From IMG/VR virus record IMGVR_UViG_3300045973_000399, positions 1 to 22,901 of that record: a stretch of DNA of 22,901 nt. The stretch is one strand, 5' to 3'. Below, one piece after another: positions 1,604 through 22,350 of the stretch. Under the pieces are notes generated by a model. The model was given only the letters and a program-made list of their open reading frames with translations, had not been told where the DNA came from and made no database searches. The translations under genes and the position numbers were made by a program. The stretch's first letter is position 1; the number at the start of each line of letters is the position of its first letter. The DNA is from a virus.

Positions 1604-2055
1604 ATGATGTCCTGGTATGAGAATGTGTTTGGGTATGGAAACGAATAGACAAAGGCAATTCTCTTGCTAAGGTCCTCGTTGAGGGTATTTAGGACAACCT
1701 TGCGTGCCTGAATGGCAGCATGGACAATCTGATCTTCGGCCACCAGGATGCCCAGGTGGCCCACGGCACGGCCATAGCGGAAGCAGACGATGTCTCCAGG
1801 AAGTGCCTTGTCCTGCCGCTTGCACCCAAAGAACTCCAACGTGGTCAGAAGCACTTCCTCTCGGTTGTGCAGGTGCCACTCGGGTGAGTAGTTGTTTGGA
1901 ATCTGGGTGCCAGCAGGAATCAGCCCTGCCTCCTCTGCAACCGCTGCAACGAGTTGGGCACAGTCTACCCCGACGTTCCTAACTCGTGCCTGGTGGTGAT
2001 AGGGGGTACCTACCCAGCCAAGGGCTGCCGCGATGATCTTATCTGAACGTGACAT
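1600..2055 (-). CDS. NlpC/P60 (C40) cell-wall peptidase of the tail tip
   Basis: A 151-residue NlpC/P60 cysteine peptidase, the gp14-type tail peptidase that opens host peptidoglycan during DNA entry. An N-terminal helix leads into GWVGTPYHHQ and then VGVDCAQLV with the catalytic Cys at residue 32. The catalytic His is most likely H100 in AVGHLGIL, with H112 (VHAA) as a further candidate. PGDIVCFRYG lies between. I chose the ATG at 2055 because the domain begins there; a longer frame to 2160 would add 35 Ser/Pro-rich residues inside the upstream gene. With this start the gene overlaps the hub gene by 17 bases. The Shine-Dalgarno sequence is weak, so translation may depend on coupling. Confidence 0.88.
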   Translation of the reverse strand: MSRSDKIIAAALGWVGTPYHHQARVRNVGVDCAQLVAAVAEEAGLIPAGTQIPNNYSPEWHLHNREEVLLTTLEFFGCKRQDKALPGDIVCFRYGRAVGHLGILVAEDQIVHAAIQARKVVLNTLNEDLSKRIAFVYSFPYPNTFSYQDII

Positions 2056-2887
2056 CTGTGTTGATATGTGGAAAGCCGCCAAAGTTGGCGACATTGTTGA
2101 ACTTGGACTTGCAGGTAGCAAGGGACTTATCACAACCGGCCTTGACTGTGAACGTGTCACCTACACCAATCGTGAAGGCGGTAGGCAGGAACAACTCGAC
2201 TGACCCAACTGGATTCTTCTTGACGACCACGGAAAGTCCTGAGTTGTTTCCTGACGTGAAGGTCAGCACGCCATTCGCAAAGAAGGCCTCGGCTTGGGTG
2301 CTTGCGGCACCTGTGATGTCGAACTTCCACTTGGCCACGTTGATGGTACCGACTGCACCCGTGAAGGTGAAGGCCCCACTTGCAACCCCACAGGCACCAA
2401 TCTTGCCTGGTCCAACCGAGCCAAAGAGCTCGTGCCTGCACGCCGAGGTGTAGGTGATGCCGATGTTCTTCTCGAGCAACTTCATGTGGCTCACCAGTTC
2501 TACCTGGAAGCCATCTTCCGACCAGCCAATCTGACCAATGCGTCCCTTGAAGACGATCAACCTACCAGCCGATGGGTCTGCCCATGAGCACCAAGCAGCC
2601 TCTACTTGGGCATCATCAAACTTGCCGTCTTGCAGGTCTGCATCTGGCACCTCGATGACAGCAGCACCAAGTTCCTGGGTAGAGACCTGTGCATCTCCGG
2701 TAGACACGAACTTGATGGCATTCAGACCAGGAGCAGGTGTATACACAACAGAATCAACAACAAGATCAGTGTCGTGATCAGTCCAGCCATACGTGACTCC
2801 CTGCTGAGTGGTCAACTTGATGAGTCGAGCAATGCGAGGCGAGTTGGTGTCAAGCTCGGCCTGTAGGCCAACGGGAATCACTCTCAT
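2039..2887 (-). CDS. DUF2163/BR0599-type tail hub protein (GTA gp13-like)
   Basis: A 282-residue protein with two parts. The N-terminal half (about 1-145) fits DUF2163, including GWTDHDTDL and IVFKGRIGQIGW. The C-terminal half fits the phage BR0599 domain and ends with AGCDKSLATCKSKFNNVANF followed by GGFPHI. Four cysteines sit at conserved places: C150 (ACRHE), C166 (ACGVA), C252 (GCDKS) and C259 (TCKSK). In the gene transfer agent hub, as I recall, such cysteines hold an iron-sulfur cluster; here this is inferred. The protein would form the ring between the distal tail protein and the tip. Neighbours are in GTA order: gp12-like upstream and the peptidase downstream. Its start overlaps the preceding stop by ATGA. 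Confidence 0.85.
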   Translation of the reverse strand: MRVIPVGLQAELDTNSPRIARLIKLTTQQGVTYGWTDHDTDLVVDSVVYTPAPGLNAIKFVSTGDAQVSTQELGAAVIEVPDADLQDGKFDDAQVEAAWCSWADPSAGRLIVFKGRIGQIGWSEDGFQVELVSHMKLLEKNIGITYTSACRHELFGSVGPGKIGACGVASGAFTFTGAVGTINVAKWKFDITGAASTQAEAFFANGVLTFTSGNNSGLSVVVKKNPVGSVELFLPTAFTIGVGDTFTVKAGCDKSLATCKSKFNNVANFGGFPHINTDVTFR

Positions 2888-3474
2888 TCGAACACCTCAA
2901 TCAGGGAGATATCTCCGATGTCGTCACCAAGAGACGTGTTGTCACTTGCGAGTGCCGACATGACCCAGTTCAGTTGTCCCTGGTCAAATCGAGCACTGAA
3001 GTAGAAGGTGCCAGAGATGGTCAATCCACTCGTGTAGCCAGCCACATGGGCACAGGGCACGCCATTCACGACCACCACCGAGTGAGCAACAACGGTAGAT
3101 CCTGACTTGATTGCCACGTCAGCATCGAGGTTGAAGATGGGGTGGGTATCGAGGGGACTACGGAGGAAGAAGTTGTTTGAACTACCCGTGTAGACCAGTG
3201 GGGTGTTCGTCCATGTGTTCAAGTCAGGGTCCTTGAACTTGAAGGAGTAGAGCGAGCCCATGGCGGTGTCCGTGTAGAACAGGGCCATCGCCTTCCGGTC
3301 CTCTGCTCGAATCAAGCGAGCAGGCCACTTCCAGGTGGTGCGGTAGTTGGTCAACTTGTTCAGGCGGTACTCAGCACCACCATTCGTCACCACGGTAGTC
3401 GGCAGGTTGAAGTTGCGCTCCAACCCGTGGATGAGCTTCAAGTTGGGAAACAGTGCGTTTACAAATGCCATCAT
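2884..3474 (-). CDS. DUF2460 distal tail protein (GTA gp12-like)
   Basis: A 196-residue protein fitting the DUF2460 family, which forms the distal tail ring that joins the tube to the tip. The start (FVNALFPNLKLIHGLERNF) is followed by T-V-V and the E-Y-R-L-N segment, then a W-K-W-P core with RAEDRKAMALFYTDT, and FKFKDPDLNTW, the family's usual lysine/aspartate turn. The start is a double ATG whose first codon overlaps the tape measure stop (ATGATG). The function follows from the family and from its position between the tape measure and the hub gene. Confidence 0.82.
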   Translation of the reverse strand: MMAFVNALFPNLKLIHGLERNFNLPTTVVTNGGAEYRLNKLTNYRTTWKWPARLIRAEDRKAMALFYTDTAMGSLYSFKFKDPDLNTWTNTPLVYTGSSNNFFLRSPLDTHPIFNLDADVAIKSGSTVVAHSVVVVNGVPCAHVAGYTSGLTISGTFYFSARFDQGQLNWVMSALASDNTSLGDDIGDISLIEVFE

Positions 3475-6400
3475 GCGGCCCTCAGGTTGTACTTGCGAGT
3501 GGCGTCATGAACGCCCATTGCTATTTCGCGCTTGACCATGTCGATCTGCTGGAGGAAGGAGCGAGAGTCAGTGGCACTGATGGACACATTGACAGAGGTG
3601 TTTCCACCCGTGTTGAGCAACTCGTTAGGAATGACCGTGCCACCCGTGTTGAAGGTCTTCAACTCAGGGCCGTTCTCACCAACCCAGTAGGACTTGCCTG
3701 CCTGGACGTCACCACCACCTGCTCGTGCGCCACCGAAGTAGGACGAGAGGAAAGATCCTGCCTGCCCAACGAGACCGCCAGTTTGTCCCTTGTCAAAGTT
3801 GGGTCCGAACAGCGCATTGGCCAGTCGAGCAGCCAACGCATTCGCGACCATCTGGTCGATGACCTTCTTGAAGGAAGATCCGAGGTCGTCCATCTTGCCC
3901 TGCATGAGGTCAAAGAAGAACGTGTCCAACGCCCCTTGAATTCCCTTGGCCGCATCTGCCCACCAGGAAACCACCTCGCCTGCCTTCTCCTTGTGGAGCT
4001 CAGCCAACTTGTTCGTCTGCTCTTCAGCATAACGAAGGAAGTCGTCTTGTGTGATCTTGCCTTCCTCGAGCAACTTGGCAGCAATCTTGATGTTGCGTTG
4101 CACATTGGCCGTGACAGTTGCCTCTGAACTGTCGAGGTAGGTGTTGATCTGCTTGGATTCCTCGAGAGCAACACGGATGTTCTCCCTACGACCAGCCTGT
4201 GCCTTTGCGAGGGCGTCAATCTCGGCTTGTCCAGCAGGAGACGTGCCTTCCTTCAACTTGTCGACCTTCAGCTCTTCCTTCTTGGCAGCAACGAGGCGCT
4301 CACGCTCATCTGCTGTCTTGCCAGTCAACGTTAGCTCATATTCCTGCAACTTGATGGCATCTTCCTCACCAGTCAACGTCTTCTTGGCAGCAGCGAGTGC
4401 ATCTTCCTGCTTGATCTTCTGGGCGTTGTAGTCAACGCCACGGGCAAGATTGACCAGCTCCTGCTTCTGCAGCGGGAGCAAGTCCTTGTACTTACCATCA
4501 GTGACTTCGAACAGGGTCTTCTCAACAGTAGTTGCTTCCTTGGTGAGGTCGATTTGGCGAAGCAGGTCTTCCTTGGCTGCGATGAAGGGATCTACCTTCT
4601 CGGCACCTGCCTTGTCTGGTTGCTTGGCTGCGGCAGAGCGCTTCTTCAGGAGGTCAATGCGTGCCTGCTCAGCGGTCTTTGCTCGATTGGCAAAGCGCTG
4701 GCTCTCATTGTCCAACTTCGTGTCCTCAGCAATCAGTTCCTTGACCTTGACAATCTCGAGGTTGTACAATTCAAGGCGGCGCTGGATGAAGGCAGCAGTC
4801 GTGTTTGGAATGGCGCCCTGTGCCTGCTCAGCACGAACTTGATCACCAATCTGGATGCGACGCTCAGGAGTGATGTTCTCCTTGATGTTCAGCGCCATCG
4901 CCTTGTACTCACGGGTGGAGCGAGTCACGTCAGCAATCGACTTTATTGCCTTTGCGGCCCAGTCAACAAAGGACTTCACCTGCTCGCCAGTCGACTCAGC
5001 GACTTGGTTTTTCAGCTCTTTCCAAGCGGTGCCGAGATTTGTAAGCGACTTCTCTTGCTCGCCACCCATCTTGACGAGGTTGTCAGATGCAACACCACCA
5101 AAATCAGTGACGCGCTTGGTGTACTTGTACATGTTGTCACCGGCTTCACGGATGGCAATGGACTGCTCACGGAAGTTGGGACCAAGGAGCTGCATGACAG
5201 CGGCAGTCGTCTTGGCAGAGACCCCGATGGCGTCGTAGTTCTTGAGGATCTGGGCAGCAACTTGCTCTGGCTTCTGGTTCTTGATGTCCTCAAGCGACAT
5301 GCCAAGTGACTCGAAGGAGAAGATCGTCTTCGCATTGTCCTCGTCCATCTTGTTCATAGAGCGAGTCAACTTGTCATAGACCTTGACAAGTCCCTCCACT
5401 GAGGCGCCATTCTCATCTGCAACTATCTGGAGCGCGACAAGGCGCTCACGGGAGACACCGAGCTTCTGTGCGAGCTCATCTTGTGCATCAGCGGCAGCAC
5501 GGGCCGAGAGGGCCATTGCGGAGATACCGGCAGAAACCGCCACGACTGCCGCCACAACAGCAGTCGCAACCCCAGCAATGATACCCATTGACCCAGCAGT
5601 TGCAGCACCTGCCTCTTCAGCCGCAACTGCCTGTGCCTTGAGGGCGAGATTTGCATTGTGGGTCTCAGCTGCAAACTTTGCCTGCGAGTCAGCAGCATCA
5701 AGTGCCGCCTTGGCGGCAGGCGCCGAGCTTGCTCCCCTGATGAGAGAATTGAGATCCCCTCCACTCATCGAACCAGATTGCCCCTTGCGCTCTGCCTCGA
5801 GAGCAGCCTTCATTGCACTGAGTTGTGCTTTCTCCTCAGCACTTCTGCCAACTGCCTTTGTTAGACCATTGTCTGCCTTGTATTGCTCGTAGGCAGCGTG
5901 TGCTGGAAACTTGGCTTGATAGGCAGCAAGCTCCACTGAAACCTTCTGGGCGGCATTGAACGCCTCCAGTGCGACCTTGGCACCATTCGTCTTTCCCTCA
6001 AGAACCGTGAACGAGATGGCCGCCGCCTTGGTGATCTTGGAAAGTTCTGACGTGTTGTCAGTTGCAATCTTCACGCCAGTCTGAGTACCAACAACGCTGG
6101 CTGTCAATGACCCTGCCATATTCGACATGGCACCGGACGAGGTTGATGCTTGCTTGCCAAGTTGACCAACTTCTTCCTTGGCCATCCGCGCACCAGCGGT
6201 GGCCGCAGCAAATGACGCGGCTAGACCCTTAAGCGAGGCGAGTCCAGTACCAGTGAATGCCTGGAACATCCGACCAGCAGCCTCCGCGGCCCCATCGCCC
6301 CCTCGTGCAACATCCTGCAGATCAGCAAAGAAGGACTGCGCGTTCTTCCCTGCTTCATTGAAGTGGCCGCCAATCTTCTTGCTGGCGTCCTCCACTTTCT

Positions 6401-6521
6401 TGAGGCCATCGGCCGCCTTGGTATCTCCGAGACCCTTGAGCGAGTCCCCCAGCTTCTTGACGCCAGCCGAGGCCTCGTCCTTGAATTCCGCTAGAATTTG
6501 CACATTGTTATCTGCCATCAT
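3471..6521 (-). CDS. Tail tape measure protein, lambda-type
   Basis: The longest gene here, 1016 residues, mostly Ala/Lys/Glu helix and coiled coil. It sets tail length and is expelled during DNA injection. A hydrophobic stretch at about 307-337 (GIIAGVATAVVAAVVAVSAG) could insert into a membrane. It is followed by the tape-measure motif LGVSRERLVALQ and GASVEGLVKVYDKL. The C-terminal part resembles lambda H: DTFFFDLMQGKMDDLGSSF, then a Gly-rich segment with GGGDVQAGKSYWVGENGPEL and G-G-T-V-I-P-N. At about 1.5 angstrom per residue it predicts a tail near 150 nm, which is an inference. It starts with a double ATG overlapping the end of the frameshifted chaperone frame, and ends ATGA-coupled to the distal tail gene. 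Confidence 0.93.
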   Translation of the reverse strand: MMADNNVQILAEFKDEASAGVKKLGDSLKGLGDTKAADGLKKVEDASKKIGGHFNEAGKNAQSFFADLQDVARGGDGAAEAAGRMFQAFTGTGLASLKGLAASFAAATAGARMAKEEVGQLGKQASTSSGAMSNMAGSLTASVVGTQTGVKIATDNTSELSKITKAAAISFTVLEGKTNGAKVALEAFNAAQKVSVELAAYQAKFPAHAAYEQYKADNGLTKAVGRSAEEKAQLSAMKAALEAERKGQSGSMSGGDLNSLIRGASSAPAAKAALDAADSQAKFAAETHNANLALKAQAVAAEEAGAATAGSMGIIAGVATAVVAAVVAVSAGISAMALSARAAADAQDELAQKLGVSRERLVALQIVADENGASVEGLVKVYDKLTRSMNKMDEDNAKTIFSFESLGMSLEDIKNQKPEQVAAQILKNYDAIGVSAKTTAAVMQLLGPNFREQSIAIREAGDNMYKYTKRVTDFGGVASDNLVKMGGEQEKSLTNLGTAWKELKNQVAESTGEQVKSFVDWAAKAIKSIADVTRSTREYKAMALNIKENITPERRIQIGDQVRAEQAQGAIPNTTAAFIQRRLELYNLEIVKVKELIAEDTKLDNESQRFANRAKTAEQARIDLLKKRSAAAKQPDKAGAEKVDPFIAAKEDLLRQIDLTKEATTVEKTLFEVTDGKYKDLLPLQKQELVNLARGVDYNAQKIKQEDALAAAKKTLTGEEDAIKLQEYELTLTGKTADERERLVAAKKEELKVDKLKEGTSPAGQAEIDALAKAQAGRRENIRVALEESKQINTYLDSSEATVTANVQRNIKIAAKLLEEGKITQDDFLRYAEEQTNKLAELHKEKAGEVVSWWADAAKGIQGALDTFFFDLMQGKMDDLGSSFKKVIDQMVANALAARLANALFGPNFDKGQTGGLVGQAGSFLSSYFGGARAGGGDVQAGKSYWVGENGPELKTFNTGGTVIPNELLNTGGNTSVNVSISATDSRSFLQQIDMVKREIAMGVHDATRKYNLRAA

Positions 6522-7101
6522 GCCCCCAACTTAGTGTGAAGTTCCTTAAGAGACTTCTCGTCATACCTTGCACCAGCGGTTGCCACGATCACTTGTCGCT
6601 GCATCTCCGCCTTCTCGAGGGACTGGGCATTCTTGCAGAAGAGGATCACCTGGTCGATGGACATCTCATAGATCTCCGTCAAGGTAAACCCCTTCACCCG
6701 TAGGTACGTTACAGTTTTGCCCCATCCGCCACCTTCGTCAGGTCCGCCATCGCCTTCATCAGGATGGGACGGACCCTTTGGACGAAAAAACTCAGATTGA
6801 CCTCGAGAAAGATGGCGGCCACTGCGACCCCATCGTCCATCTCGACATCATCAAACCACGCCCTCGTCTTGCCAATTGACAGGCCGACCAGGGACAGAAA
6901 GTCATCGCCACCTTCAGCGATCAGTCGAATTGCGGCCGAGGCCATGTCGCCAGAGGCGAGCAGTTCGGAAGCAGGCGCAATGATGTTGCGACTTAGCTGT
7001 ACCGCTTGGGTCAGCTGACCAATCTTGAGGGGCTTTACGCTAATCAGCTCATCGTTGATGGTGATCTCGCGGTTGGGAAACAGAACTTGAAGGTCAGACA
7101 T
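6518..7101 (-). CDS. Tail assembly chaperone, long form (GT-type) by -1 frameshift
   Basis: The same start as the short form. A -1 shift at GGGGCAAAAC (6723-6714) just before the TAA would enter a frame open to a TGA at 6520-6518, and that stop overlaps the tape measure start. Slipping on the AAA codon (residue 129) gives a product of about 194 residues, adding 65: TVTYLRVKGFTLTEIYEM and onward to HTKLGA. The added part looks like a real T domain. A hairpin (6698-6683; arms GGTGAA and TTTACC, loop GGGG) lies 16 bases past the slip and may stimulate it. The heptamer is not the classic XXXYYYZ: only the A-site tRNA re-pairs well. An independent start (GTG or ATG) in the second frame is the alternative. 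Confidence 0.72.
6683..6723 (-). promoter_or_regulatory. Candidate -1 frameshift site with downstream hairpin
   Basis: The slip region reads GGGGCAAAAC (6723-6714), with zero-frame codons GGG GCA AAA CTG TAA. After 16 more bases comes a six-pair hairpin with one G-U pair (6698-6693 with 6688-6683, loop GGGG). The site lies where lambda-like phages shift frame to make the GT fusion. The spacing is longer than usual and the P-site codon GCA pairs poorly after slipping, so the exact slip point is uncertain. Confidence 0.55.
6709..7101 (-). CDS. Tail assembly chaperone, short form (G-type)
   Basis: A 130-residue acidic/hydrophobic helical protein between the tail tube and the tape measure, the standard position for the tail assembly chaperone that coats the tape measure before the tube polymerises. 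It starts with MSDLQVLFPNREI and has helices around 25-60 and 85-120. The start has a clear ribosome site (GGAG, 8 bases upstream). The frame ends in a TAA two codons after a run of G and A bases where a -1 frameshift would give the longer form. The sequence family is variable, so the call rests on position, size and the overlapping second frame. Confidence 0.8.
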   Translation of the reverse strand: MSDLQVLFPNREITINDELISVKPLKIGQLTQAVQLSRNIIAPASELLASGDMASAAIRLIAEGGDDFLSLVGLSIGKTRAWFDDVEMDDGVAVAAIFLEVNLSFFVQRVRPILMKAMADLTKVADGAKL

Positions 7102-7121: not shown

Positions 7122-7161
7122 GTATAAAGGAAGAGGGTGTCTCCTTTCGAAGACACCCTCT
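7122..7161 (-). terminator. Strong hairpin terminator after the tail tube gene
   Basis: On the minus strand an 11-base arm AGAGGGTGTCT pairs perfectly with AGACACCCTCT. Two more inner pairs (T-G and C-G) close a GAAA loop. A T-rich tail TTCCTTTAT follows. It begins 26 bases after the tail tube stop. It would end or attenuate transcription after the highly expressed tube gene and lower expression of the chaperone and tape measure genes. Because a CTAAATA motif abuts its upstream arm, it could instead be a 5' stabilising hairpin of a new transcript. Confidence 0.8.
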
Positions 7162-7167
7162 ATTTAG
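7161..7167 (-). promoter_or_regulatory. CTAAATA motif between tail tube gene and terminator
   Basis: Minus-strand CCCTAAATAGAGGG lies in the 3' untranslated region of the tail tube gene, directly before the terminator hairpin. It shares CTAAATAGAGG with the copy downstream of the capsid gene. It resembles T4-type late promoters (TATAAATA), but a start about six bases downstream would place the hairpin at the 5' end of the transcript. The promoter role is a hypothesis. Confidence 0.35.
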
Positions 7168-7186: not shown

Positions 7187-7939
7187 TTACGCCTGGACGT
7201 AGGTGAAGTACGGAGAACCCGTGGACACTTCAGCGGCTGGCAGGAGAGCGCCAGTCAGGGTCAGGACCGCAACGTCAGAGCCGATCAGGTCAAGCGCGGC
7301 AGCGATGCCTGGCTTTGCACGGTAGAACGTGGCGATCTGAGCCTTGTTGTCGAACTGAGACTTGCCTTCGAAGCGGAACACGTATTCCTTGGCAGTGGTC
7401 GTCAGAGCTTCCAGCTTGGTGGCGTAGGACGCGTAGGTGTAGGCCACCGTGCAGGGGACTGCAGAGGTACCGGTCACCAAGGTCGAACCAGACAGGAACG
7501 TGACCGTGCCATTGACGGCATCAAGCGTGTAGTCCACACCGGCCACGAGAGCCGTGCCAGGAGTCGTCTTCGTCACGACAACCGAGGAGACGCCAGGGTG
7601 CTTCAGGGGAACCATCGAGCCAGCGTAGGCATTGATCGATTCAGAAGCAACGGTTGCACCAGTTGCGGCTGCTGCCGTGCCATAGAAAGCACGAGCCAGG
7701 TTGGCGCCATCGATATTGCGGATGCCAATCGAGAAGCCAAGGTCGGTCTGAGTCACGATGTCCAGAACGCGAGCGCGGTTGCCCGAGTAGGATTCACGGA
7801 AAGACAGGGTCTGCTCCGTGCCAGAAATCGAGAAGCCGTCAGCATCACCAATCCAGGTGAAGCCACTTGTTTGTCCAGCCGAATCACGGGTGGCCACGTA
7901 GACCTTGCCCTGACCAACTGCGTAGTACTTGTCAGCCAT
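7187..7939 (-). CDS. Major tail tube protein
   Basis: A 250-residue, beta-rich protein that would stack as rings to form the tail tube. It opens with ADKYYAVGQGKVYVATRD and a T-WIGDADGFSISG segment, then LSFRESYSGNRA and DLGFSIGIRNID, a tube-like sandwich. Threonine/valine-rich strands follow (residues about 100-175), and then EYVFRFEGKSQFDNK. A perfect AAGGAG site precedes the ATG, and a strong terminator follows the stop, as expected for an abundant protein. Position between the tail terminator and the chaperone genes supports the call. Confidence 0.88.
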   Translation of the reverse strand: MADKYYAVGQGKVYVATRDSAGQTSGFTWIGDADGFSISGTEQTLSFRESYSGNRARVLDIVTQTDLGFSIGIRNIDGANLARAFYGTAAAATGATVASESINAYAGSMVPLKHPGVSSVVVTKTTPGTALVAGVDYTLDAVNGTVTFLSGSTLVTGTSAVPCTVAYTYASYATKLEALTTTAKEYVFRFEGKSQFDNKAQIATFYRAKPGIAAALDLIGSDVAVLTLTGALLPAAEVSTGSPYFTYVQA

Positions 7940-7951
7940 TGTAGAGGCTCC

Positions 7952-8383
7952 TTAAGTGAGTTGTTTTGCATAGGCGGCATCGGCACTGAAGTTCAGCTGG
8001 TAGACAACGCGATCTGGATTAACCGAGATCAACGTGCAGCCATCATAGCCCCAAACCTTGCTACCTTCATCATTCACGATTGTCCCTCTCACCGCCTGAG
8101 AAGCATCGTCAATTAACTTGAGCTGTGTATCAACGAAGTCGACTTCTCCAGCGCCATACCCAAGAATGAGCACGACACTGTAGTTAAGACGCATCAGTTG
8201 GAATCGCTGGTGGTCAGGTCCTGTGTTCTGCATACCGGAGAACACGACCCAAGCAGCGGGTACCGCAATCAACGCCAGAGCGGGGTCAGCTTCAGTCCCG
8301 CCCATAGAAGCAGCCACGTTCTCGCCCAACGCGGTCACTGTCTTCAACTTTGACACGAGGTCGTTTGTGTAGATATCAATCAT
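7952..8383 (-). CDS. Tail terminator protein
   Basis: A 143-residue protein that would cap the finished tail and join it to the head, inferred from its size and from its place just before the tail tube gene. It starts MIDIYTNDLVSKLKTVTALG, and has a conserved-looking core (NYSVVLILGYG and VRGTIVNDEGSKVWGYDG). I chose the ATG at 8383, which has GAGG upstream, over the ATG at 8425, which would overlap the preceding gene and lacks a ribosome site. The gene overlaps the preceding small gene by 8 bases and ends 12 bases before the tail tube start. Confidence 0.75.
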   Translation of the reverse strand: MIDIYTNDLVSKLKTVTALGENVAASMGGTEADPALALIAVPAAWVVFSGMQNTGPDHQRFQLMRLNYSVVLILGYGAGEVDFVDTQLKLIDDASQAVRGTIVNDEGSKVWGYDGCTLISVNPDRVVYQLNFSADAAYAKQLT

Positions 8384-8570
8384 CCAATGCCCTCGTAATT
8401 CTATCAAGCACCTTCTTAGCAGCATGTTCTTTGACGACCTCTTCTTGTCGCATTTTCATGTAGACGCGAATGAGGTACTCGTATTCCCAGTCTGTTACCT
8501 CGATTTCGTCTCCTGCCTGGTAGTTCCCAGTCGGAGTCTCGTGGTTGAGGAGTAAGGTGATTTTACGCAT
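8376..8570 (-). CDS. Small protein of unknown function (DUF7210-like)
   Basis: A 64-residue charged protein. Its first half has a strand followed by NYQAGDEIEVTDWEYEYLI, a G-D-E-hydrophobic pattern seen in small phage proteins near head-tail genes; its second half is a Lys/Glu-rich helix. It lies between the completion protein and the tail terminator. There is no Shine-Dalgarno site; the ATG comes four bases after the preceding stop, so translation probably depends on reinitiation. The family name is from memory and uncertain. Confidence 0.6.
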   Translation of the reverse strand: MRKITLLLNHETPTGNYQAGDEIEVTDWEYEYLIRVYMKMRQEEVVKEHAAKKVLDRITRALDD

Positions 8571-8574
8571 GTAT

Positions 8575-9000
8575 TTAGTGTTTCAGGAGATGTTGGGTAA
8601 CGAAACGCCTGATTGCGTCCATGTCTCCTTGAGAGACACCAAGGAAGGGACGAGCTGGCATATTGATGGTCCCGTTCTGCAGGTAGGTCGCGTAGGGGAC
8701 GGTTGTCGAGACAACAGCGCGATTTCTTGAGATGGAGGCAGTGATCGAGTTGAACAAGGTGCCCGTGTCATAGAGGAGACCAGAGCCAGCGGTGCCCGCC
8801 TTGATGCGAGCGGCCCGTGTGGCTGGTGCCCATGGCTCCCAGGCATTGCCATCGGGATCTGCCTTCGTGGTGCGAATGCGGGCACGAGATGAGGCCACGA
8901 GGTGGTCACCAATGTTCTGGAGAAGTGGAGTCGTGTCCTGGAGATTACGAAGGAGCTTCGTAATCTGCGTCCCATTGACGGTGACCTTTACCTTGCTCAC
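8575..9000 (-). CDS. Virion morphogenesis/tail completion protein (Mu gpG, P2 gpS-like)
   Basis: A 141-residue protein fitting the phage virion morphogenesis family (PF05069 type). After an N-terminal helix come DPDGNAWEPWAPATRAARI, then LLYDTGTLFNSITASI, a strand, VPYATYLQNG, and MPARPFLGVSQGDMDAIRRF. These are the family's usual landmarks: G-x-x-W, L-x-x-T-G-x-L, Y-A-x-x-x-Q-x-G and P-A-R-P-F-L-G. Such proteins complete the tail's head-proximal end. The start overlaps the upstream stop by ATGA. A second protein of similar HK97-gp10 fold is encoded at 18675-18403. Confidence 0.85.
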   Translation of the reverse strand: MSKVKVTVNGTQITKLLRNLQDTTPLLQNIGDHLVASSRARIRTTKADPDGNAWEPWAPATRAARIKAGTAGSGLLYDTGTLFNSITASISRNRAVVSTTVPYATYLQNGTINMPARPFLGVSQGDMDAIRRFVTQHLLKH

Positions 9001-9632
9001 TTGCCGACCTTCGTTGAGAGGGCGCGAACTGTGGTCCCATTTGGCGTGTGAGCGACTGTCTGCACGATGTAGCGTGCAGTGTCAATCTCGATGACGTCAT
9101 TGTTGCGAATCAGATCAGACGGAGTCCAGGTCCAGATTTCAAGGCGGGTCTGCGTGGTGGCCATCTTCGTGGCAGCAGGAGCTGAGCCGTTGTCAGCCAC
9201 GGCCCCAATGTTCTGCAGCGCGATTGGTAGATCAGTTGCCACCTGCTCGAACACCGTCTTCTTGTCACCAGTCAGGTTGTAGACTGGACGAAGGATGTTG
9301 ACGAGATGGGTGGCGGTGACCCCAACTGGACCACGAAGTGGGGTGTTGATGAATACGATGAAGGTGCGGTCTTGTGCCTGGTTGCGGAGCAAATCGCCTG
9401 GCCTGACGGTGCCGTACTCGCAGAAGAGCTTGAAGTACGACAGTGGGTCCTCGGTCCCCTTCTTGAAGGAGTCGTCCTGGGAGTAGGCGAGGTTGAGGGT
9501 TGCCAGGTAGTTGCGCGTCTGGAGAGGCGTGATGTACGTGTCAGGCCGATAGTGTTTGAATTCCCAGCCGATGAGCTTGCCTACCTTCTTCATGGAGGAG
9601 CTGATCTTCTTGTCGATGGTGGTTCCGCTCAT
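8997..9632 (-). CDS. Head closure/neck-like protein
   Basis: A 211-residue protein with a helical basic N-terminus (SSMKKVGKLIGWEFKHYRP), a central part with DPLSYFKLFCEYGTVRPGDLL, and a C-terminal beta segment NDVIEIDTARYIVQTVAHT, the kind of barrel strand found in head-closure (stopper) proteins. Gene order, next to the completion protein and tail terminator, supports a neck role. It has AAGGAA upstream of the ATG. The large N-terminal part is longer than classic closure proteins of about 110 residues. The assignment is an inference from order and the C-terminal pattern. Confidence 0.55.
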   Translation of the reverse strand: MSGTTIDKKISSSMKKVGKLIGWEFKHYRPDTYITPLQTRNYLATLNLAYSQDDSFKKGTEDPLSYFKLFCEYGTVRPGDLLRNQAQDRTFIVFINTPLRGPVGVTATHLVNILRPVYNLTGDKKTVFEQVATDLPIALQNIGAVADNGSAPAATKMATTQTRLEIWTWTPSDLIRNNDVIEIDTARYIVQTVAHTPNGTTVRALSTKVGK

Positions 9633-9640
9633 GGTATTCC

Positions 9641-10111
9641 TTAGATGATCTTGTGGTACTGGAGGAGCCAGCCGATGACTACGAGGGTGACAGACCCGAG
9701 AAAACCGAAGCCAAGGAGAATGCGCTTCACCTGTTCCTTGGTCACCGCGTGATCTTGTTCAACTCGATCAAGACGGTCCTCTGTCCGCTTGTCACGAGTG
9801 GCAGAATCTTCCTGCTTAATCTCGAGGACGTGAATCTTGGTGCCCTGATCTACCAGCTTGTCGATGGCGATGATGACCATCTTGTGGCTGTCCTTGATCA
9901 TCGCGACAGTGGTCTCACCCTGTGCTCGAATTACAGCGATGTCGCCTCTCGTGCTCTGGATGTCATCTCTCGTACCTTGAATGAGATTGCTTTCATCAAG
10001 AATGTGGTCTCTGAGGGCGGTCCTGATATCCATCATCGTGGACTCAAGCACAGCGAGGCGCTCAGTTCCACCGAGGAGATCTGTGGTGCGACGCTGTGGA
10101 GTTTCGGTCAT
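9641..10111 (-). CDS. Coiled-coil protein with C-terminal membrane anchor
   Basis: A 156-residue protein: a polar N-terminus, a long heptad-like helix (residues about 15-125, rich in I/L/V, D, R and Q), and a C-terminal hydrophobic segment ILLGFGFLGSVTLVVIGWLL followed by QYHKII. This predicts a tail-anchored membrane protein with the coiled coil outside the bilayer. It sits between structural genes, ATGA-coupled to the 173-residue gene. It could be a holin-like or membrane-contact protein, or a virion protein that inserts in the host membrane during entry. Its function is unknown to me. Confidence 0.7.
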   Translation of the reverse strand: MTETPQRRTTDLLGGTERLAVLESTMMDIRTALRDHILDESNLIQGTRDDIQSTRGDIAVIRAQGETTVAMIKDSHKMVIIAIDKLVDQGTKIHVLEIKQEDSATRDKRTEDRLDRVEQDHAVTKEQVKRILLGFGFLGSVTLVVIGWLLQYHKII

Positions 10112-10629
10112 GCGGGTACCCAGGCACTTCCGTCCCAGTAGTTGATCTTACCAGTCGAATCCACTCGATTTGGAGTGGTGAAGGTGAGCTGTGCAATCTT
10201 GGCCAACTCAGCGGTGAGCTCAACTCGGACTGCCTCAGCAATCTGGGTAGCAGATGGACCAGAACTTCCAGTTCCACCGACTGCGTAGGCCTGTGCTCGC
10301 TCAGGCACCGTATACTGCACCAGCACGTTGTAGTTACCCAGAGTCGGCACCACCGGGTCTCCACCTCCATCTACGGAGATGTTTCCCTCGAGGACGAGGG
10401 TGTGAGCCGCCTCCATTGGACGAACTCGCCACCCATTCAGGAGGAAGAGGTAGAGCGAGATGTACAGGTCACCACCCAGCGGGTCTCCACCAGTGACTCG
10501 AAATGCCTGTTGGTACTTCGCGTTGTCACTTGTTCGGACCCACTCCTTCCAGCGGGAGTAGATCTCCCCGGTAGTCACCAAGGCGCTACCGAGAATGATC
10601 CGCTTGTTGGTTGGATCAAAGGTGATCAC
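10108..10629 (-). CDS. Conserved phage virion-associated protein of the fibre cassette
   Basis: A 173-residue protein. It opens ITFDPTNKRIILGSA, then WKEWVRTSDNAKYQQAFRV, GGDPLGGDLYISLYLFLLNG, WRVRPMEAAHTLVLEGNI, and VDGGGDPVVPTLGNYNVLV. I recall proteins with this pattern in many siphoviruses, usually near fibre or adaptor genes, but no firm function. The C-terminal 50 residues form a helix (TQIAEAVRVELTAELAKIAQ) and end with YWDGSAWVPA. A trimeric fibre-adaptor role is possible. The start has AAGGA upstream and lies 9 bases after the preceding stop. Confidence 0.7.
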   Translation of the reverse strand: MITFDPTNKRIILGSALVTTGEIYSRWKEWVRTSDNAKYQQAFRVTGGDPLGGDLYISLYLFLLNGWRVRPMEAAHTLVLEGNISVDGGGDPVVPTLGNYNVLVQYTVPERAQAYAVGGTGSSGPSATQIAEAVRVELTAELAKIAQLTFTTPNRVDSTGKINYWDGSAWVPA

Positions 10630-10638
10630 ATCAGGTCC

Positions 10639-11988: not shown

Positions 11989-12165
11989 TTAGTCCTCACA
12001 TTCAAGTTGGTAGTTTGGGTTCGAGAGAAGGAGGTTACCATTCTCAAGAGTTGCGATTTGCTGTACTTCAAAGGTGAAGTCATCAATCTCCGCAGAGTCA
12101 CCCTTATTTAGGGTGGGTAGGACGTGCCCTAGGTGGAGCCCGTCAGTAGTTTTAACGATTCTCAT
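11989..12165 (-). CDS. Small protein of the fibre cassette (58 aa)
   Basis: A 58-residue frame I translated by hand: it opens MRIVKTTDGLHLGHVLPTLN and ends NYQLECED. It fills the whole gap between two large virion genes. A strong AAGGAG site, which overlaps the upstream stop, precedes its ATG, and its TAA is followed immediately by the ATG of the 449-residue protein. The pattern (two or three short strands, acidic middle) gives no family I recognise. A small chaperone or adaptor for its neighbours is a guess from position only. Confidence 0.75.
   Translation of the reverse strand: MRIVKTTDGLHLGHVLPTLNKGDSAEIDDFTFEVQQIATLENGNLLLSNPNYQLECED
12099..12115. repeat. Perfect inverted repeat within the 58-aa gene
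   Basis: CACCCT and AGGGTG form six perfect pairs around a five-base loop. On the minus strand the loop, with flanking bases, contains CTAAATA. It lies inside coding sequence. There is no T-tract, so it is not a typical terminator. Confidence 0.5.
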
Positions 12166-16012: not shown

Positions 16013-16521
16013 AGACGCATGCTCAGTGAGCGAGCACCTGAGACATCGGAGGTACCGAGGTAGATGCCAGTGCCCATCGAGGAGAGCAACTCAGCAACCT
16101 GCTTCGGCATGTCCAGTGGACCCTTCTTGGCGGTGACCTTGAGTGGACCTGCCTCGAGACTGGTCAGTTGACCGAGGTCTACATCGGAGAAGTAGCGGTC
16201 TTCCTCAGTCCAGTACCAGATGGCGAGCTCACAGGCTGCTTGCTGAACTTTCGCTGGAACCACTGAGGTCGAGTAGGAAGTTCCCTCGTCATCGTAGATT
16301 CCACGACGAGGCCAAAGAAGGGGCTGCAAACGGGAGGTCTTCAACCCACCGTACTTGAAGGTCTCGAGCATGTTTGATGCGCGAACCAGCAGAGATTCCT
16401 TCTTTGGCTCGTCAAAGTCAGCCCAAGCTTCAGCGCCAAACCTCAATGAGAAGTACGTGTCTGCATACGCCACATCGGTGTAGCAGTTCATTGTTGGGCT
16501 CGTGGGAGTTGCGTCAATCAT
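16009..16521 (-). CDS. Head-tail adaptor (DnaT-like/Ad1-type connector)
   Basis: A 170-residue protein fitting the phage adaptor group often labelled DnaT-like ssDNA-binding: NCYTDVAYADTYFSLRFGAE, A-W, then LVRASNMLETFKYGGLKT, LQPLLWPRRGIYDDEG, and VPAKVQQAACELAIWYW. The conserved cues are N-x-Y, A-D-x-Y-F, R-A-x-x-x-L, Q-x-L-x-W-P-R and P-x-x-V-x-x-A-x-x-E-L-A. These proteins form the ring directly below the portal; the DNA-binding label is a misnomer in most phages. The last 50 residues are probably a flexible tail. GGAG precedes the ATG. The gene lies in the usual place after the capsid gene. Confidence 0.8.
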   Translation of the reverse strand: MIDATPTSPTMNCYTDVAYADTYFSLRFGAEAWADFDEPKKESLLVRASNMLETFKYGGLKTSRLQPLLWPRRGIYDDEGTSYSTSVVPAKVQQAACELAIWYWTEEDRYFSDVDLGQLTSLEAGPLKVTAKKGPLDMPKQVAELLSSMGTGIYLGTSDVSGARSLSMRL

Positions 16522-16705
16522 TCTTTATCTCCAAGATGCGGTCCTTGAATATCTTGGCCTCATCCGCGTTCAGGTAGAGCTGGTCACCGCGTTGTGCCGA
16601 GATCTGCCTTGTGCTGATGAAACCGTGTATCCTGTCCGTGATCACAAAGAGACGTCTGCCTTGCGCATCCATCAACTTGACCACGGGAGTAGACTGCTTC
16701 CTCAT
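16514..16705 (-). CDS. Small protein of unknown function between capsid and adaptor genes
   Basis: A 63-residue basic protein (MRKQSTPVVKLMDAQGRRLF at the start, then RGDQLYLNADEAKIFKDRIL). The G-D-x-hydrophobic-x-x-x-x-E pattern near the C-terminus resembles that of the 64-residue gene at 8570-8376, suggesting that both belong to one class of small head-tail region proteins. The GAGGT before the start lies between the CTAAATA motif and the ATG. The gene overlaps the adaptor gene by 8 bases. Function unknown. Confidence 0.65.
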   Translation of the reverse strand: MRKQSTPVVKLMDAQGRRLFVITDRIHGFISTRQISAQRGDQLYLNADEAKIFKDRILEIKND

Positions 16706-16718
16706 CGTTAGGTACCTC

Positions 16719-16725
16719 TATTTAG
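16719..16725 (-). promoter_or_regulatory. CTAAATA motif downstream of the capsid terminator
   Basis: Minus-strand CCACTAAATAGAGG, just after the capsid terminator and 13 bases before the next ATG. This is a logical place for a promoter that restarts transcription. With a T4-like start position, however, the transcript would lack the GAGGT ribosome site. The promoter role is a hypothesis. Confidence 0.4.
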
Positions 16726-16736
16726 TGGTTTCCAGG

Positions 16737-16765
16737 CAAAAGAAAGGGCCCTCTTTCGAGAGCCC
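16737..16765 (-). terminator. Strong hairpin terminator after the major capsid gene
   Basis: Minus-strand arms GGGCTCTC and GAGGGCCC form eight pairs (one G-T) around a GAAA loop and are followed by TTTCTTTT. It begins 23 bases after the capsid stop codon. It would cap the abundant capsid transcript and reduce expression of the downstream connector genes. Confidence 0.9.
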
Positions 16766-16767
16766 TC

Positions 16768-16780
16768 AGGGATTAACCCT
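16768..16780 (-). repeat. Shared 3'-UTR element AGGGTTAATCCCT (copy 2)
   Basis: This lies between the major capsid stop codon and its terminator, matching at 12 of 13 bases the element in the same position after the tail tube gene. Its short arms AGGG/CCCT could form a small hairpin upstream of the terminator. Function unknown. Confidence 0.6.
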
Positions 16781-16788
16781 TAACCTGC

Positions 16789-17712
16789 TTAGTTCGCACC
16801 AACTGACGAAGAAGTCAGGGTCGTCCAGACAGCATCGGTGTCGATGAGGCCGAACTTGAACACACCATGCCAGCCCATGTTGACGAAGCGGTTCAGCTTG
16901 TCGTTCTGGGTGATGACCATGCCAGGAGCCTTCGAAGTAGCCATGCCCAGGCCGTTGAAGCCCAAGAACGAGGACTTGTAGGCATCCACCGTACCTGCAC
17001 CAGCCTGGTCGGCAAATGCGCAGTCGTTGTTGCGGATGATGATGAAGCCCTTGTACACGCCAACTTCGTTGTTGAGCGCGGTTGCTGGATCAGCATACTT
17101 GACGACATCGGTCCAGTCACCAGCAGAAGCGGCAGCACGGAGGTCCGTGATCACGTCATCGTGCATGAAGGCAACGTACAGGCCATTGCGGACAAACGGG
17201 ATGGAGGCACGAGCCATCTTGTTGTAGACCTTGTTGAGCAGCGCGCCAGTCATGACGTCAGCAGCCAACAGGCCGGCTTCGGTACCAGCGCCTGGGATCA
17301 GGACATTGGCAGAAGTTTCAAGAGTGCGAGTAGCCAGCACGTTCATCGTCTTGGCAACGTTGTCACCAACGAGGCGAGCAACTGCGAGGTCAACCTTGCC
17401 ACCGGTCTGCAGCGAGGCGAGAGCGGTAGTCGTCACAACCTTGCCGTACTCGACAGGAGTGAGGATGATCTGCGAGTCCGTGACTTCAGCAGAGGTCACG
17501 TCTTCAGTTTCGGTCAGAGGCGTGATGGCAGCAGCCAGCTTGCCATACTTCGGGAACTGGATCGACACAGCACCAATGTTGGCACGGTACTGGACGAATG
17601 GGGTCATGACATCGCCTTGCTCGGCAGCAACGATGAATCCGGCATCATAGGCCTGGATAACGCTGTTGTCGACTGAGGTGACAGTCGTCATTACGGTAGT
17701 GAAATCAGCCAT
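16789..17712 (-). CDS. Major capsid protein (HK97 fold, N4 gp56/P22-coat-like)
   Basis: A 307-residue protein with the composition of a capsid subunit, rich in A, V, T and G. Cues are IVAAEQGDVMTPFVQYRANI, VSIQFPKYGKLAAAITPL, ITLTPVEYGK-like strand ILTPVEYGKVVTTTALASLQ, a spine helix LAVARLVGDNVAKTMNVLAT, and FVRNGLYVAFMHDDVITDLR with YKGFIIIRNNDC. Family membership is inferred from this pattern, and the order scaffold then capsid is strong support. The ATG has a good AAAGGAG site 7-8 bases upstream. A strong terminator follows. No protease gene is seen nearby and the N-terminus is short, so capsid maturation probably uses the separate scaffold. Confidence 0.9.
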   Translation of the reverse strand: MADFTTVMTTVTSVDNSVIQAYDAGFIVAAEQGDVMTPFVQYRANIGAVSIQFPKYGKLAAAITPLTETEDVTSAEVTDSQIILTPVEYGKVVTTTALASLQTGGKVDLAVARLVGDNVAKTMNVLATRTLETSANVLIPGAGTEAGLLAADVMTGALLNKVYNKMARASIPFVRNGLYVAFMHDDVITDLRAAASAGDWTDVVKYADPATALNNEVGVYKGFIIIRNNDCAFADQAGAGTVDAYKSSFLGFNGLGMATSKAPGMVITQNDKLNRFVNMGWHGVFKFGLIDTDAVWTTLTSSSVGAN

Positions 17713-17731
17713 TTAGCTGCTCCTTTGTGAG

Positions 17732-18325: not shown

Positions 18326-18389
18326 GACGACGGGGTCTCCTGTCCGGGAAGTATTGGGATGAGTATTAAGGCGATTGCTCGCGTGAATC

Positions 18390-18396
18390 TATTTAG
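18390..18396 (-). promoter_or_regulatory. CTAAATA motif upstream of the scaffold and capsid genes
   Basis: Minus-strand TTCACTAAATAGATTCACG in the 77-base gap before the scaffold gene, with 64 bases between the motif and the scaffold ATG. It is the best-placed copy for a late promoter: a normal leader with a ribosome site would follow. There is no recognisable -35 box at 16-18 bases, as would be expected for a T4-type late promoter. Confidence 0.45.
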
Positions 18397-18402
18397 TGAA
18401 AT

Positions 18403-18675: not shown

Positions 18676-18676
18676 G

Positions 18677-20089
18677 TTACACCTTGACTACCGTGGCCAC
18701 AGTGCCCGTGGTAGGTGAACGATTGGGTGTGGCCGGAGCCTCAGCATCAATCTCGATGATCTTCGCCTCTGCCTCAGCACGAGACATGCCCTTGACTTCC
18801 ATGAAGTAGTCAACGCGTGAAGCGCGTCGCTCCTGAATCCTGCGTGACCAGACTTCCTCAGTTGCCTTCTCATCGATGGGAAGATCGGGAGGAGCGAACT
18901 TGACGTAGAGAGTCGACTCAGCAGGAAGCGAGATCCCATTGAAGATGGCGATGATCTTGATGACCTCATAGAGACGCTTGAAGCCGGCTTCCATCATGCG
19001 CTGACGGGACTTGCGAAGCTCGAGGTTCTGCAGTTCCTCAACGATGAGCTTGAAGCCGCTGTCTGCCTTCGAGCCCTGGCCATCGAGCTTGATGTTCACT
19101 GACCAGTCGCCAGCAAAGTCAGCCACCCACTTGTTGACCATCTGGTCAAGCGGCATCAGGTTGACATCCGGCTTCTTGTAGTCCAGATAGACGGTGTCGC
19201 CATTGGTCTCGACTGCAACCACGGTGCCTGGTCCACCCACAAATCCGGGGTCTGAAGATGGCACCCACCGCGGAAGCTTCTCGTCAGGAAACTGCTCCAC
19301 AGTCATCTGCTGTCCAGTGCCACCTTGGATGATGGCATTCGTGAACAGGGTTGGCTGCTTGTTCCAGGCAGAGGCGTACTCAGAATCCGTCAGGTGCAGG
19401 TTGTAGATGTCGTTGATCTCAATCAAGTCCATCGGAATCTCGTTCCACGCGTCATCTCGAGGGATGTTGGTGTCGTGGAACATGGCAGCAGGGATGATGC
19501 CATACGGATTGGGCTGAGGATTCGAGAGAGTCTCGTTTCCTGACTCATCGACCAGCAGGTCCTGGACCAACTCAGGAGTCCAGATGCGATAGGTGTCACC
19601 CTGCTCGGTCTCACCCGTCTCGTAGATCAGGGTCGTCATCTGCTTGAAGTCGTCAATCGCCACCGCGCTGTTGTGCTGGTCGAGCATCTCGAGCACCCAC
19701 TGGTTCCGCTCTGGTGAGTACTGGACAAGGACCATGGCTGACTTGAGCATGCGCAGACCAACGTCAAAGTTTGTGAAGAACTCGACCCAGTCAGCGGAGT
19801 CAAGGACATCAAGCACGACCTGGCCTGCCACATCATCGGGAGAAGTCGACTGCTTGGTAGAGTAGACGTTGATTGTCGGTGCCTTGCCGTTGAAGAGGAG
19901 ACCGCTCTTGTCAGCGATCATCTTGACGATGTTGCGGGCACGAGGAATGAGCCCCTTCTTGAGAGCATTCTTGCGATGGGTCTGGAGGAACTTCATGAGG
20001 TGTTCCTTGGACTCTCCATCGTAGTAGTCCCAAACGCAGTCGGCCTTGCACTTGTCGTCCTGGTCGAACATGTCCATGAATTTTGCCAT
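18677..20089 (-). CDS. Portal protein
   Basis: A 470-residue protein that would form the dodecameric DNA portal. The start has WDYYDGESKEHLMKFL, a basic helix, then ARNIVKMIADKSGLLFNGK, the usual portal opening (Y-x-G ... R-x-I-V-x-x-x-A-x-x). The middle has NPYGIIPAAMFHDTN and LIEINDIYNLHLTDSEYASA, and the end has the long helix LELRKSRQRMMEAGFKRLYE with a YVKFAPPDLPIDEKATEEVW segment (P-x-D ... E clip and crown region). The length fits SPP1-type portals. The ATG shares one base with the large terminase stop (TGATG), and AAGGAG lies 8 bases upstream. Confidence 0.9.
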   Translation of the reverse strand: MAKFMDMFDQDDKCKADCVWDYYDGESKEHLMKFLQTHRKNALKKGLIPRARNIVKMIADKSGLLFNGKAPTINVYSTKQSTSPDDVAGQVVLDVLDSADWVEFFTNFDVGLRMLKSAMVLVQYSPERNQWVLEMLDQHNSAVAIDDFKQMTTLIYETGETEQGDTYRIWTPELVQDLLVDESGNETLSNPQPNPYGIIPAAMFHDTNIPRDDAWNEIPMDLIEINDIYNLHLTDSEYASAWNKQPTLFTNAIIQGGTGQQMTVEQFPDEKLPRWVPSSDPGFVGGPGTVVAVETNGDTVYLDYKKPDVNLMPLDQMVNKWVADFAGDWSVNIKLDGQGSKADSGFKLIVEELQNLELRKSRQRMMEAGFKRLYEVIKIIAIFNGISLPAESTLYVKFAPPDLPIDEKATEEVWSRRIQERRASRVDYFMEVKGMSRAEAEAKIIEIDAEAPATPNRSPTTGTVATVVKV

Positions 20090-21360
20090 CAGTGGCTCCT
20101 TAGCGTTGCTTTGCTTGTTAGCGGGTAGAGCTTGTGCACCAGGTAACCGGCCGCATCCAAGCAGTGATCGATGTTGTTTGATTTGTCTGGTAGTCCATCA
20201 ATCCACGACTGGCGTTCAAGATTCTCAGTGTAGGTAGGACAGAGCTTCGTATTTAGGCGATATCTGCGCTCTCCGGCTGCGTTGAGAAACATCGCGTTCA
20301 TGGAGTTGATGCGGTCACCCACCCCTGGATTGGATGGATCAACGATGACCTTGAAGCCCGCTTGACGGAGGAGGGAGTGACTGGTATCGACCCCTGCTGG
20401 ATTGCGGTTCTTACCACTCGCATCGGGATAGACGAGGATGGGTCGAGTTGGGTACTTGGCCTTGATGGCCGCAATCATGGCCTTGGTATCGAGCAGGTCA
20501 ATGAACTCATCAACCGCGTAGGGAAGACCGTCCTTGACGATGTGGCTCACCGCGGCCATGTGCCCGATGTTGAAGTCCATGCCGATGTGGGCTGGCTCGT
20601 GTCTGGCGACATCGTTGATGGTGTAGTTGGTGTGGTTTTGATTTCGGTCAAAGCAGGAGTAGACCGTGTGGCTGAAGATGTTGGCGAATTCCCCGTTGAC
20701 GTAGGCTGCCTGCTTGTTGGCAGGGATGTTGGCCAACCGAGATTCGATGTAGCCCTTGGGAAGGAGGAAGTTGTCCGTCATCTTGACGTGCCAGATCTTG
20801 GTCCTGTCGCTCCTCTCCTTGACGAAGCGCTGGTACATGAAGGCGTAGCCCTCAGGAGTCGAGACAGCAAACTGGATGGCTCGCTCATCTTCAGACAGGC
20901 GGTTGCCCAGCTCGAGGAAGGCGTTGTAGGCCATGTCGGCAGATCGACACAGGTCCGCCTCGTCAAATCCGCCCCAGGCCAGAGACATACCGTTCATGCG
21001 GGTGTAGTTCTCAGCAGAGACGTTGAGCCAGATACGAGAGATCTTGCTACCTACCTTAATGTCGATGTAGTCCACGTAGGTATTCGTCAGTCTCTCAGCA
21101 TCGTATTCGAGCCCGGTAGTAGGCAGGATTCTCCTCAAGATGGGCACGATGTTGCGCTGGTTCATACCAGCGATGGGCGAGATGATGACCCCGTGCTTCC
21201 CAGGAAACCAGGTAGTGGCACATATGAGCGCCTTCCACGTGAGTGCCTCGGACTTTCCTGCTCGATAGCCGCCCACAAATCCCTGGATAGGGGTGTCCCG
21301 GTCCATGACGAAGGGGACCTGGTGTGGCATGAGGGTAGGACGAAGTTGCAGGTATCTCAT
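20089..21360 (-). CDS. Terminase large subunit
   Basis: A 423-residue DNA-packaging ATPase and nuclease. Residues 30-37 give the Walker A motif (GGYRAGKS), and LAWGGFDEAD gives the Walker B motif with D133 and E134. FAVSTPEG (about 164-171) is the coupling motif. The nuclease has aspartates at 262 (IGMDFNIG), 313 (VYPDASG), and 398 and/or 402 (NIDHCLDAAG). The length is normal for a full enzyme. The ATG at 21360 overlaps a micro-ORF stop and has no ribosome site, so translation appears to depend on coupling. A CTAAATA inside (20250-20256) is in coding sequence. Confidence 0.95.
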   Translation of the reverse strand: MRYLQLRPTLMPHQVPFVMDRDTPIQGFVGGYRAGKSEALTWKALICATTWFPGKHGVIISPIAGMNQRNIVPILRRILPTTGLEYDAERLTNTYVDYIDIKVGSKISRIWLNVSAENYTRMNGMSLAWGGFDEADLCRSADMAYNAFLELGNRLSEDERAIQFAVSTPEGYAFMYQRFVKERSDRTKIWHVKMTDNFLLPKGYIESRLANIPANKQAAYVNGEFANIFSHTVYSCFDRNQNHTNYTINDVARHEPAHIGMDFNIGHMAAVSHIVKDGLPYAVDEFIDLLDTKAMIAAIKAKYPTRPILVYPDASGKNRNPAGVDTSHSLLRQAGFKVIVDPSNPGVGDRINSMNAMFLNAAGERRYRLNTKLCPTYTENLERQSWIDGLPDKSNNIDHCLDAAGYLVHKLYPLTSKATLRSH

Positions 21361-22115: not shown

Positions 22116-22339
22116 TTTGCGTCCTTTTTGATGCGTTTTGCACACCTTCTGCGTGTCTTAAAGGGAGGCACCTCGGACATTGCATACCAGACCTTGACAT
22201 CGAAGATCGCACTTGGAAACACAACCAGTGAGGACTGGTAGCGAGGCTTGAGTGGACTCTTCTGGATCAGGGCTGGGATGGTTATCGTGAGAACTTCATC
22301 GTACCAGAGGCGGTACTCAGCATCGGTGTATTCTTTCAT
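22112..22339 (-). CDS. Small basic protein of unknown function (75 aa)
   Basis: A 75-residue protein: KEYTDAEYRLWYDEVLTITI, a P-rich middle (SPLKPRYQSSLVVFP), aromatic strands (VKVWYAMSEVPPF), and a strongly basic end (KTRRRCAKRIKKDAK). The basic tail could bind DNA or RNA. The longer frame to 22552 crosses a terminator hairpin and overlaps the lipoprotein gene on the same strand, so the short start is preferred. No Shine-Dalgarno sequence is obvious. A CATAAATA motif ends 4 bases before the ATG. Unknown family. Confidence 0.55.
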   Translation of the reverse strand: MKEYTDAEYRLWYDEVLTITIPALIQKSPLKPRYQSSLVVFPSAIFDVKVWYAMSEVPPFKTRRRCAKRIKKDAK

Positions 22340-22343
22340 TCCG

Positions 22344-22350
22344 TATTTAT
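22344..22350 (-). promoter_or_regulatory. ATAAATA motif before the packaging operon
   Basis: Minus-strand CTCATAAATACGGA, the copy closest to the T4 late promoter consensus TATAAATA. It lies between the lipoprotein terminator and the first packaging gene. The ATG begins only four bases later, so a transcript starting here would lack a normal leader for that gene but could serve the small terminase and later genes. Confidence 0.4.

Follow-up and report, generated by a model that had tools for sequence, protein, structure and literature searches.

Siphovirus-type head and tail genes in the window analyzed here, a 22,901-base virus record that is a fragment, are preceded at one junction after another by a short coding-strand motif, TAAATA. 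We consider it very likely that these sites act as late promoters like those of T4 and Aeromonas phage Aeh1, here in a siphovirus, an inference drawn from sequence alone, with no transcript data. The sites are read in this way because a relative of the window, G002, encodes a homologue of the late sigma factor gp55 and because the late promoter of Aeh1 is CTAAATA. An earlier note on the window had proposed a T4-type late promoter, and the proposal is supported: enrichment, strand bias, conservation of position and codons, and a gp55 homologue in G002 are all shown. Initiation, start position, late timing and escape from a terminator are all inferred, since no RNA 5' ends are available.

We propose that host RNA polymerase with a gp55-type sigma factor bound to it recognizes a single −10-like element (TAAATA preceded by A, C or G, without a −35 box), and we predict a transcription start 6 nt downstream of its final A. 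The copies would head short units, namely terS/terL, portal, scaffold/capsid, connectors, tail tube, tail chaperones and minor tail genes.

A strand-specific motif in the window

The gene content of the window is of siphovirus type: terminase, portal, scaffold, capsid, connectors and a major tail protein with an Ig-like domain, together with a tail assembly chaperone, a tape measure protein, and tail assembly and minor tail proteins. The portal assignment rests on position and conservation. All eight copies of TAAATA are on the minus strand, where the recognized genes lie; the plus strand has none (Table 1). The earlier note had reported eight copies, on the coding strand only, locating each by its first base on the minus strand, and all eight held. 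In seven of them the base at −12 is C; the eighth reads ATAAATA.

By chance, 1.28 copies of TAAATA would be expected on both strands together, and eight were reached in none of 100 dinucleotide shuffles. The first reading had put the expectation for CTAAATA at about one per strand; a trinucleotide model of the coding strand gives 0.08, and 0.2 for TAAATA. Under the trinucleotide model, no other 6-mer in the window is as over-represented as TAAATA (P about 5e-11), and no other 7-mer as over-represented as CTAAATA (P about 5e-12). These P values depend on the composition models, and the related genomes discussed below are not independent of one another.

Table 1. Putative promoters, terminator-like hairpins and anchor genes in the window, with counterparts of the motif copies in relatives
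Feature	Position	Strand	Context	Counterparts or best match
ATAAATA (with flanking base), late-promoter-like	22343..22350	-	before terS block; 3' of terminator-like hairpin	G001 (6494), G002 (11913), G003, G004, L255 (4886), all pre-terS
CTAAATA within terL (codons CTA AAT AC)	20250..20256	-	161 nt before portal gene start	identical codon position in G001-G004 and L255
CTAAATA	18390..18396	-	65 nt before scaffold gene	G001-G004, L255
CTAAATA between capsid-gene terminator and next small gene	16719..16725	-	14 nt before small-gene start	G001-G004, G012, L255, all post-capsid
CTAAATA in conserved 58-aa ORF (11989-12165)	12105..12111	-	117 nt before 449-aa gene	G003, G004, G015
CTAAATA, TAA being the stop codon of ORF 8575-9000	8572..8578	-	2 nt before ATG of ORF 8376-8570; 147 nt before ORF 7952-8425	same stop codon in G001, G002
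CTAAATA after major tail protein gene	7161..7167	-	60 nt before tail assembly chaperone gene	G001, G003, G015, G017
CTAAATA within minor-tail-like gene (codons CTA AAT AC)	1686..1692	-	83 nt before ORF 1361-1603	G001, G002
Sigma-70-like TGTACA-N16-TATAAT	22840..22867	-	before lipoprotein-like ORF 22423-22806, right end of window	
Terminator-like hairpin 3' of capsid gene	16744..16767	-	just upstream of motif at 16725	
Strong terminator-like hairpin, 13 pairs	7132..7161	-	behind major tail protein gene; 5' arm abuts motif at 7167	
Terminase large subunit (anchor for relatives)	20089..21360	-		phrog_10250 7e-36; PF17289 6e-7
Major capsid protein (anchor for relatives)	16789..17712	-		phrog_1357 3e-33
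Major tail protein with Ig-like domain (siphovirus tail tube)	7187..7939	-		phrog_807 5e-58

Placement relative to genes

A gene start follows each of the eight sites at a distance of 2 to 161 nt (binomial P 1e-5). When three weak small ORFs are left out, the distances become 14 to 199 nt (P 2.5e-5, within 210 nt). The claim that copies precede the packaging, scaffold/capsid, connector and chaperone modules was borne out. It was also correct that three copies lie in coding sequence (terL, the minor-tail-like gene and the 58-aa ORF) and that one falls on a stop codon, that of ORF 8575-9000. The doubt then raised, whether coding copies can be promoters, was not supported. The T4 late region, taken as a control, has TATAAATA both between and within genes, and the copies inside window genes use rare synonymous codons. 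A genic location is no bar because the coding copies are followed by the start of the next gene after 83, 117 and 161 nt; in so tightly packed a genome they would therefore serve that next gene (ORF 1361-1603, the 449-aa gene and the portal gene, respectively). With T4-like initiation, a promoter at 8572..8578 could not serve the ATG of ORF 8376-8570, because this ATG follows so closely on the motif.

The position relative to genes would also suit promoters of the host sigma-70 type whose −10 box is unusual. We regard this explanation as very unlikely. Paired −35 and −10 hexamers separated by 16 to 18 nt gave no scan match at any of the eight sites; no sigma-70-like match elsewhere in the scan overlaps one of them, and a −35 partner is absent. 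Moreover, a separate sigma-70-like class stands before other genes. The core TAAATA without a −35 element, as in T4-type late promoters, is present at the window sites, with the distance to the start site inferred.

The separate class, TGTACA-N16-TATAAT, likely represents early promoters read with a host sigma factor, again by inference. Besides the window copy, there are three in G004 (21259, 23110 and 23483) with similar downstream bases, and a variant form precedes non-structural genes in G001 (7654, 8614, 10064 and 10536). The window copy and the one at 23483 in G004 have a downstream box in common, GCATCATACCA. The lipoprotein-like ORF 22423-22806 lies upstream of terS and has relatives in G029 and G052. 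CTAAATA on the other strand of G004 had been considered as a set of counterexamples to the strand bias, and was rejected as such, as these copies belong to the repeated TGTACA-N16-TATAAT promoter of that genome.

Conservation in relatives

Viral contigs were searched with TerL, capsid and portal, which gave relatives with the same module. The closer group comprises G001 to G004, G015, G017 and L255 (the same as G065), and the more distant relatives are G012, G021, G029, G031, G047, G050, G052 and G055. A check beyond the window for strand bias and late-gene placement, which the earlier note had proposed, was run in these relatives, and the motif is strand specific and found at the same junctions. 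Counts of TAAATA on the coding and the other strand are 12 and 0 in G001, 13 and 0 in G002, 6 and 0 in G015, 11 and 1 in G017 (60% G+C), and 14 and 1 in G055 (57% G+C). Whole-record counts are uninformative in the A+T-rich G003, G013 and G043, where the motif is common by chance.

For every site in the window, at least one relative has a copy at the corresponding junction, and the correspondence of sites has a P of 0.002 or less per genome in G001 to G004. The terL, pre-scaffold and post-capsid sites were mapped in all four of these. The pre-terS site is 149 to 185 nt off its mapped place in G001 to G004, yet it lies before or at the terS start in each. The base before the core is C in the window, G017 and L271, A or G in G001 and G002, and A in most copies of G055. 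CTAAATA, the motif as first described, was therefore rejected as the conserved unit: the 7-mer is not kept in relatives because its first base drifts, and the conserved core is TAAATA preceded by A, G or C. Motif enrichment was absent from many other capsid relatives examined, so the motif is a property of some lineages.

The late region of L255, at 73% G+C, has five coding-strand copies of TAAATA where 0.0002 would be expected. AAAT occurs five times on that strand, always inside TAAATA, and four of the five copies occupy the terS, terL, scaffold and post-capsid places. The lone GTA among 206 valine codons counted in L255 belongs to the copy inside terL. Across five genomes the terL site reads GTA or CTA followed by AAT AC, codons of low use, and the joint chance of the rare GTA/CTA AAT at this place is about 2e-7 if the genomes are independent. 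That both the position of the motif and its rare synonymous codons are kept reflects selection on the DNA and not on the protein.

A signal acting in RNA (processing, part of a terminator, or translation) could be invoked instead, as could chance or codon bias, and some copies do touch a hairpin or a stop codon. However, most copies have neither, and codon usage runs against the motif, which makes these explanations very unlikely compared with that of a late promoter.

A gp55 homologue and comparison with known phages

The genome of G002 is collinear with the window and has, at 11178-11597, a gene for a gp55 homologue of 139 aa, 330 nt upstream of terS (phrog_234, E 7e-31; phmmer to T4 gp55 7d7c, 1.6e-7). 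Its best tblastn match is Xanthomonas phage XacN1 (2e-24). A search for a gp55-like sigma gene had been suggested at the outset; one was thus found in a relative with the same head-tail module, and none was seen in the window fragment. It had also been remarked that a T4-like late sigma factor would be unexpected alongside siphovirus tail genes. A gp55 homologue is nonetheless present in the syntenic G002. T4 late transcription has been regarded as peculiar to T4-related phages (PMC2988020), and we found no description of T4-type late promoters in siphoviruses in the open-access literature searched.

In the T4 structure, gp55 contacts −8 through T99 and has Y97 stacked against the −12 base; F86 and T99 matter for promoter contact (PMC7892883). 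The G002 protein keeps F86 and T99 and has F in place of Y97. It is tempting to link residue 97 to the identity of the −12 base, but this was rejected: Aeh1, with C at −12, keeps Y97, and G002, with A or G, has F97.

For the T4-like phage Aeh1, the late promoter has been published as CTAAATA, with its first base at −12 (PMC1524935). The window shares with Aeh1 all seven bases, including the characteristic C at −12, the lack of a −35 box and the placement before late genes. However, Aeh1 has a genome of 233 kb, a contractile tail and a gp55 of its own, whereas here the module is of siphovirus type and the relatives are 31 to 38 kb. With the T4 late promoter, TATAAATA, and its gp55 (PMC2988020, PMC7892883), the likeness lies in the core TAAATA at −11 to −6 as a single element, in the mixture of intergenic and intragenic copies, and in the gp55 homologue of G002. 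In contrast to T4, the T at −13 is not kept, −12 is mostly C (the Aeh1 variant) instead of A, and most relatives have no visible gp55. The −13 base is also poorly conserved in other T4-like phages (PMC1524935).

The gp55 proteins of XacN1 and of Stenotrophomonas jumbo phages are closest to the G002 sigma factor (37 to 39% identity), but they are encoded in genomes of 320 to 385 kb. All gp55-bearing phage records among the listed matches are at least 134 kb. In the 102-kb contig L117, a gp55-like gene (10001-10213) is split by a long in-frame insertion that is intein-like. A T4-type sliding clamp, gp45 (PF02916), was found in none of 21 records, and the profile scored Aeh1 itself only just below the cut-off.

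Hairpins abutting the motif

Initiation as in T4 at the motif at 7167 would begin at about 7155, within the abutting hairpin. The resulting transcript would lack the first six hairpin bases and escape the terminator, a prediction that rests on folding only: removing the first 6 pairs changes the folding energy from −23.3 to −8.3 kcal/mol, and energy is lost likewise in eight further cases. This one element would then end the upstream transcript and start the next, and in the same scheme several other putative promoters sit just behind a terminator.

An abutting hairpin after the tail tube gene is also present in G001, G015, G017 and G012. Elsewhere in relatives a hairpin 5' arm directly follows TAAATA in cases that include G029, G021, G031 and G055. 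Overall, a hairpin abuts 15 of 224 motif copies, versus 2% at random positions, and the layout is therefore a minority one.

Small relatives and the missing sigma factor

Most motif-bearing relatives, several of them apparently complete, resemble the window in that no gp55 was seen, and Sigma70_r2 gave no match in the window or in most of these relatives. Fragmentation was dropped as the full reason for the missing sigma factor because the contig ends of relatives close. Exact terminal overlaps of 121 to 127 bp were found in G012, G013, G017, G029, G043 and G057; G001 has a terminal overlap of 106 bp at 92%, and G002 closes in frame with zero gap. G052 and G058 are also among the relatives whose ends overlap or join in frame. 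Judging by these contig ends, the relatives are likely complete, circular-mapping genomes of 31 to 38 kb. PolA, PolB and DnaB were not found in the motif-bearing closed genomes, nor was a recognizable sigma factor apart from G002 gp55. PolA is present in G057 and G058, capsid relatives without the motif.

Three distant, motif-bearing relatives have an integrase and/or a VapE/DUF5906/PriCT-2 primase-helicase, a gene set common to satellites and some temperate phages. These loci are at 897-2069 and 4308-6907 in G029 (L237), 8762-11042 and 16467-17534 in G052 (L251), and 3251-6410 in G050 (L282). In G001 (L093), an AAA ATPase at 7691-8560 is weakly clamp-loader-like (PF00004, 4e-7; phrog_168, 8e-6) and adjoins a homing-endonuclease-like ORF (8644-9180). 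The matches in a TerL search of bacterial genomes were only 33 to 44%, and therefore no host is assigned.

Two refinements of the late-promoter reading would account for the missing sigma factor. In the first, each phage has its own sigma factor or activator, one that has diverged too far, or is of too different a kind, for recognition. G002 does carry a gp55, and G001, G017 and G012 hold several small ORFs without a family match. Against this, a filters-off six-frame hmmsearch for a diverged gp55, and hhalign on each called ORF, gave nothing beyond G002, though the profile detects the divergent gp55 of Aeh1 at 5e-35. In the second, the 31- to 38-kb phages would borrow gp55 from a T4-like or jumbo phage infecting the same cell. 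The closure of relatives at this size is in favor, as are the lack of PolA, PolB, DnaB and sigma factor in motif-bearing ones (except the sigma of G002), the PolA of the motif-free G057 and G058, and the integrase and/or primase-helicase types of G029, G052 and G050, which are also common in satellites. However, G002 itself encodes a gp55, it is common for small temperate phages to be without a polymerase and to have an integrase and primase, the two polymerase-bearing genomes are a small sample, and no helper has been identified. We lean toward an unrecognized sigma factor of their own as the more cautious reading; a borrowed one is less likely but not excluded.

In its bolder form, the borrowed-factor reading may be put as follows: small tailed phages of 31 to 38 kb, with heads and tails of their own but no polymerase and mostly no sigma factor, might depend on a helper's late sigma factor to turn on their virion genes. 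Virophages use the late promoter of their giant virus. By analogy, these phages could be a tailed-phage counterpart of virophages, in which a small virus likewise keeps its own capsid genes behind the late-promoter motif of a larger one, and the −12 base could be the dialect of the helper. Unlike the case of virophages, no helper is identified here. The gene content of the relatives is compatible with that of phage satellites, and any dependence on a helper is inferred only.

What the motif may mean for small phages

A T4-type promoter, and once its sigma factor, in siphovirus-type phages of 31 to 38 kb would mean that this regulatory module moves between unrelated phages. The motif also makes it simple to test the sequences of uncultured phages for late operons, even at 73% G+C. 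For the phages without a sigma factor, a question is raised: whose sigma reads their promoters? If it is borrowed, a signal readable in the sequence would link small phages to their helpers.
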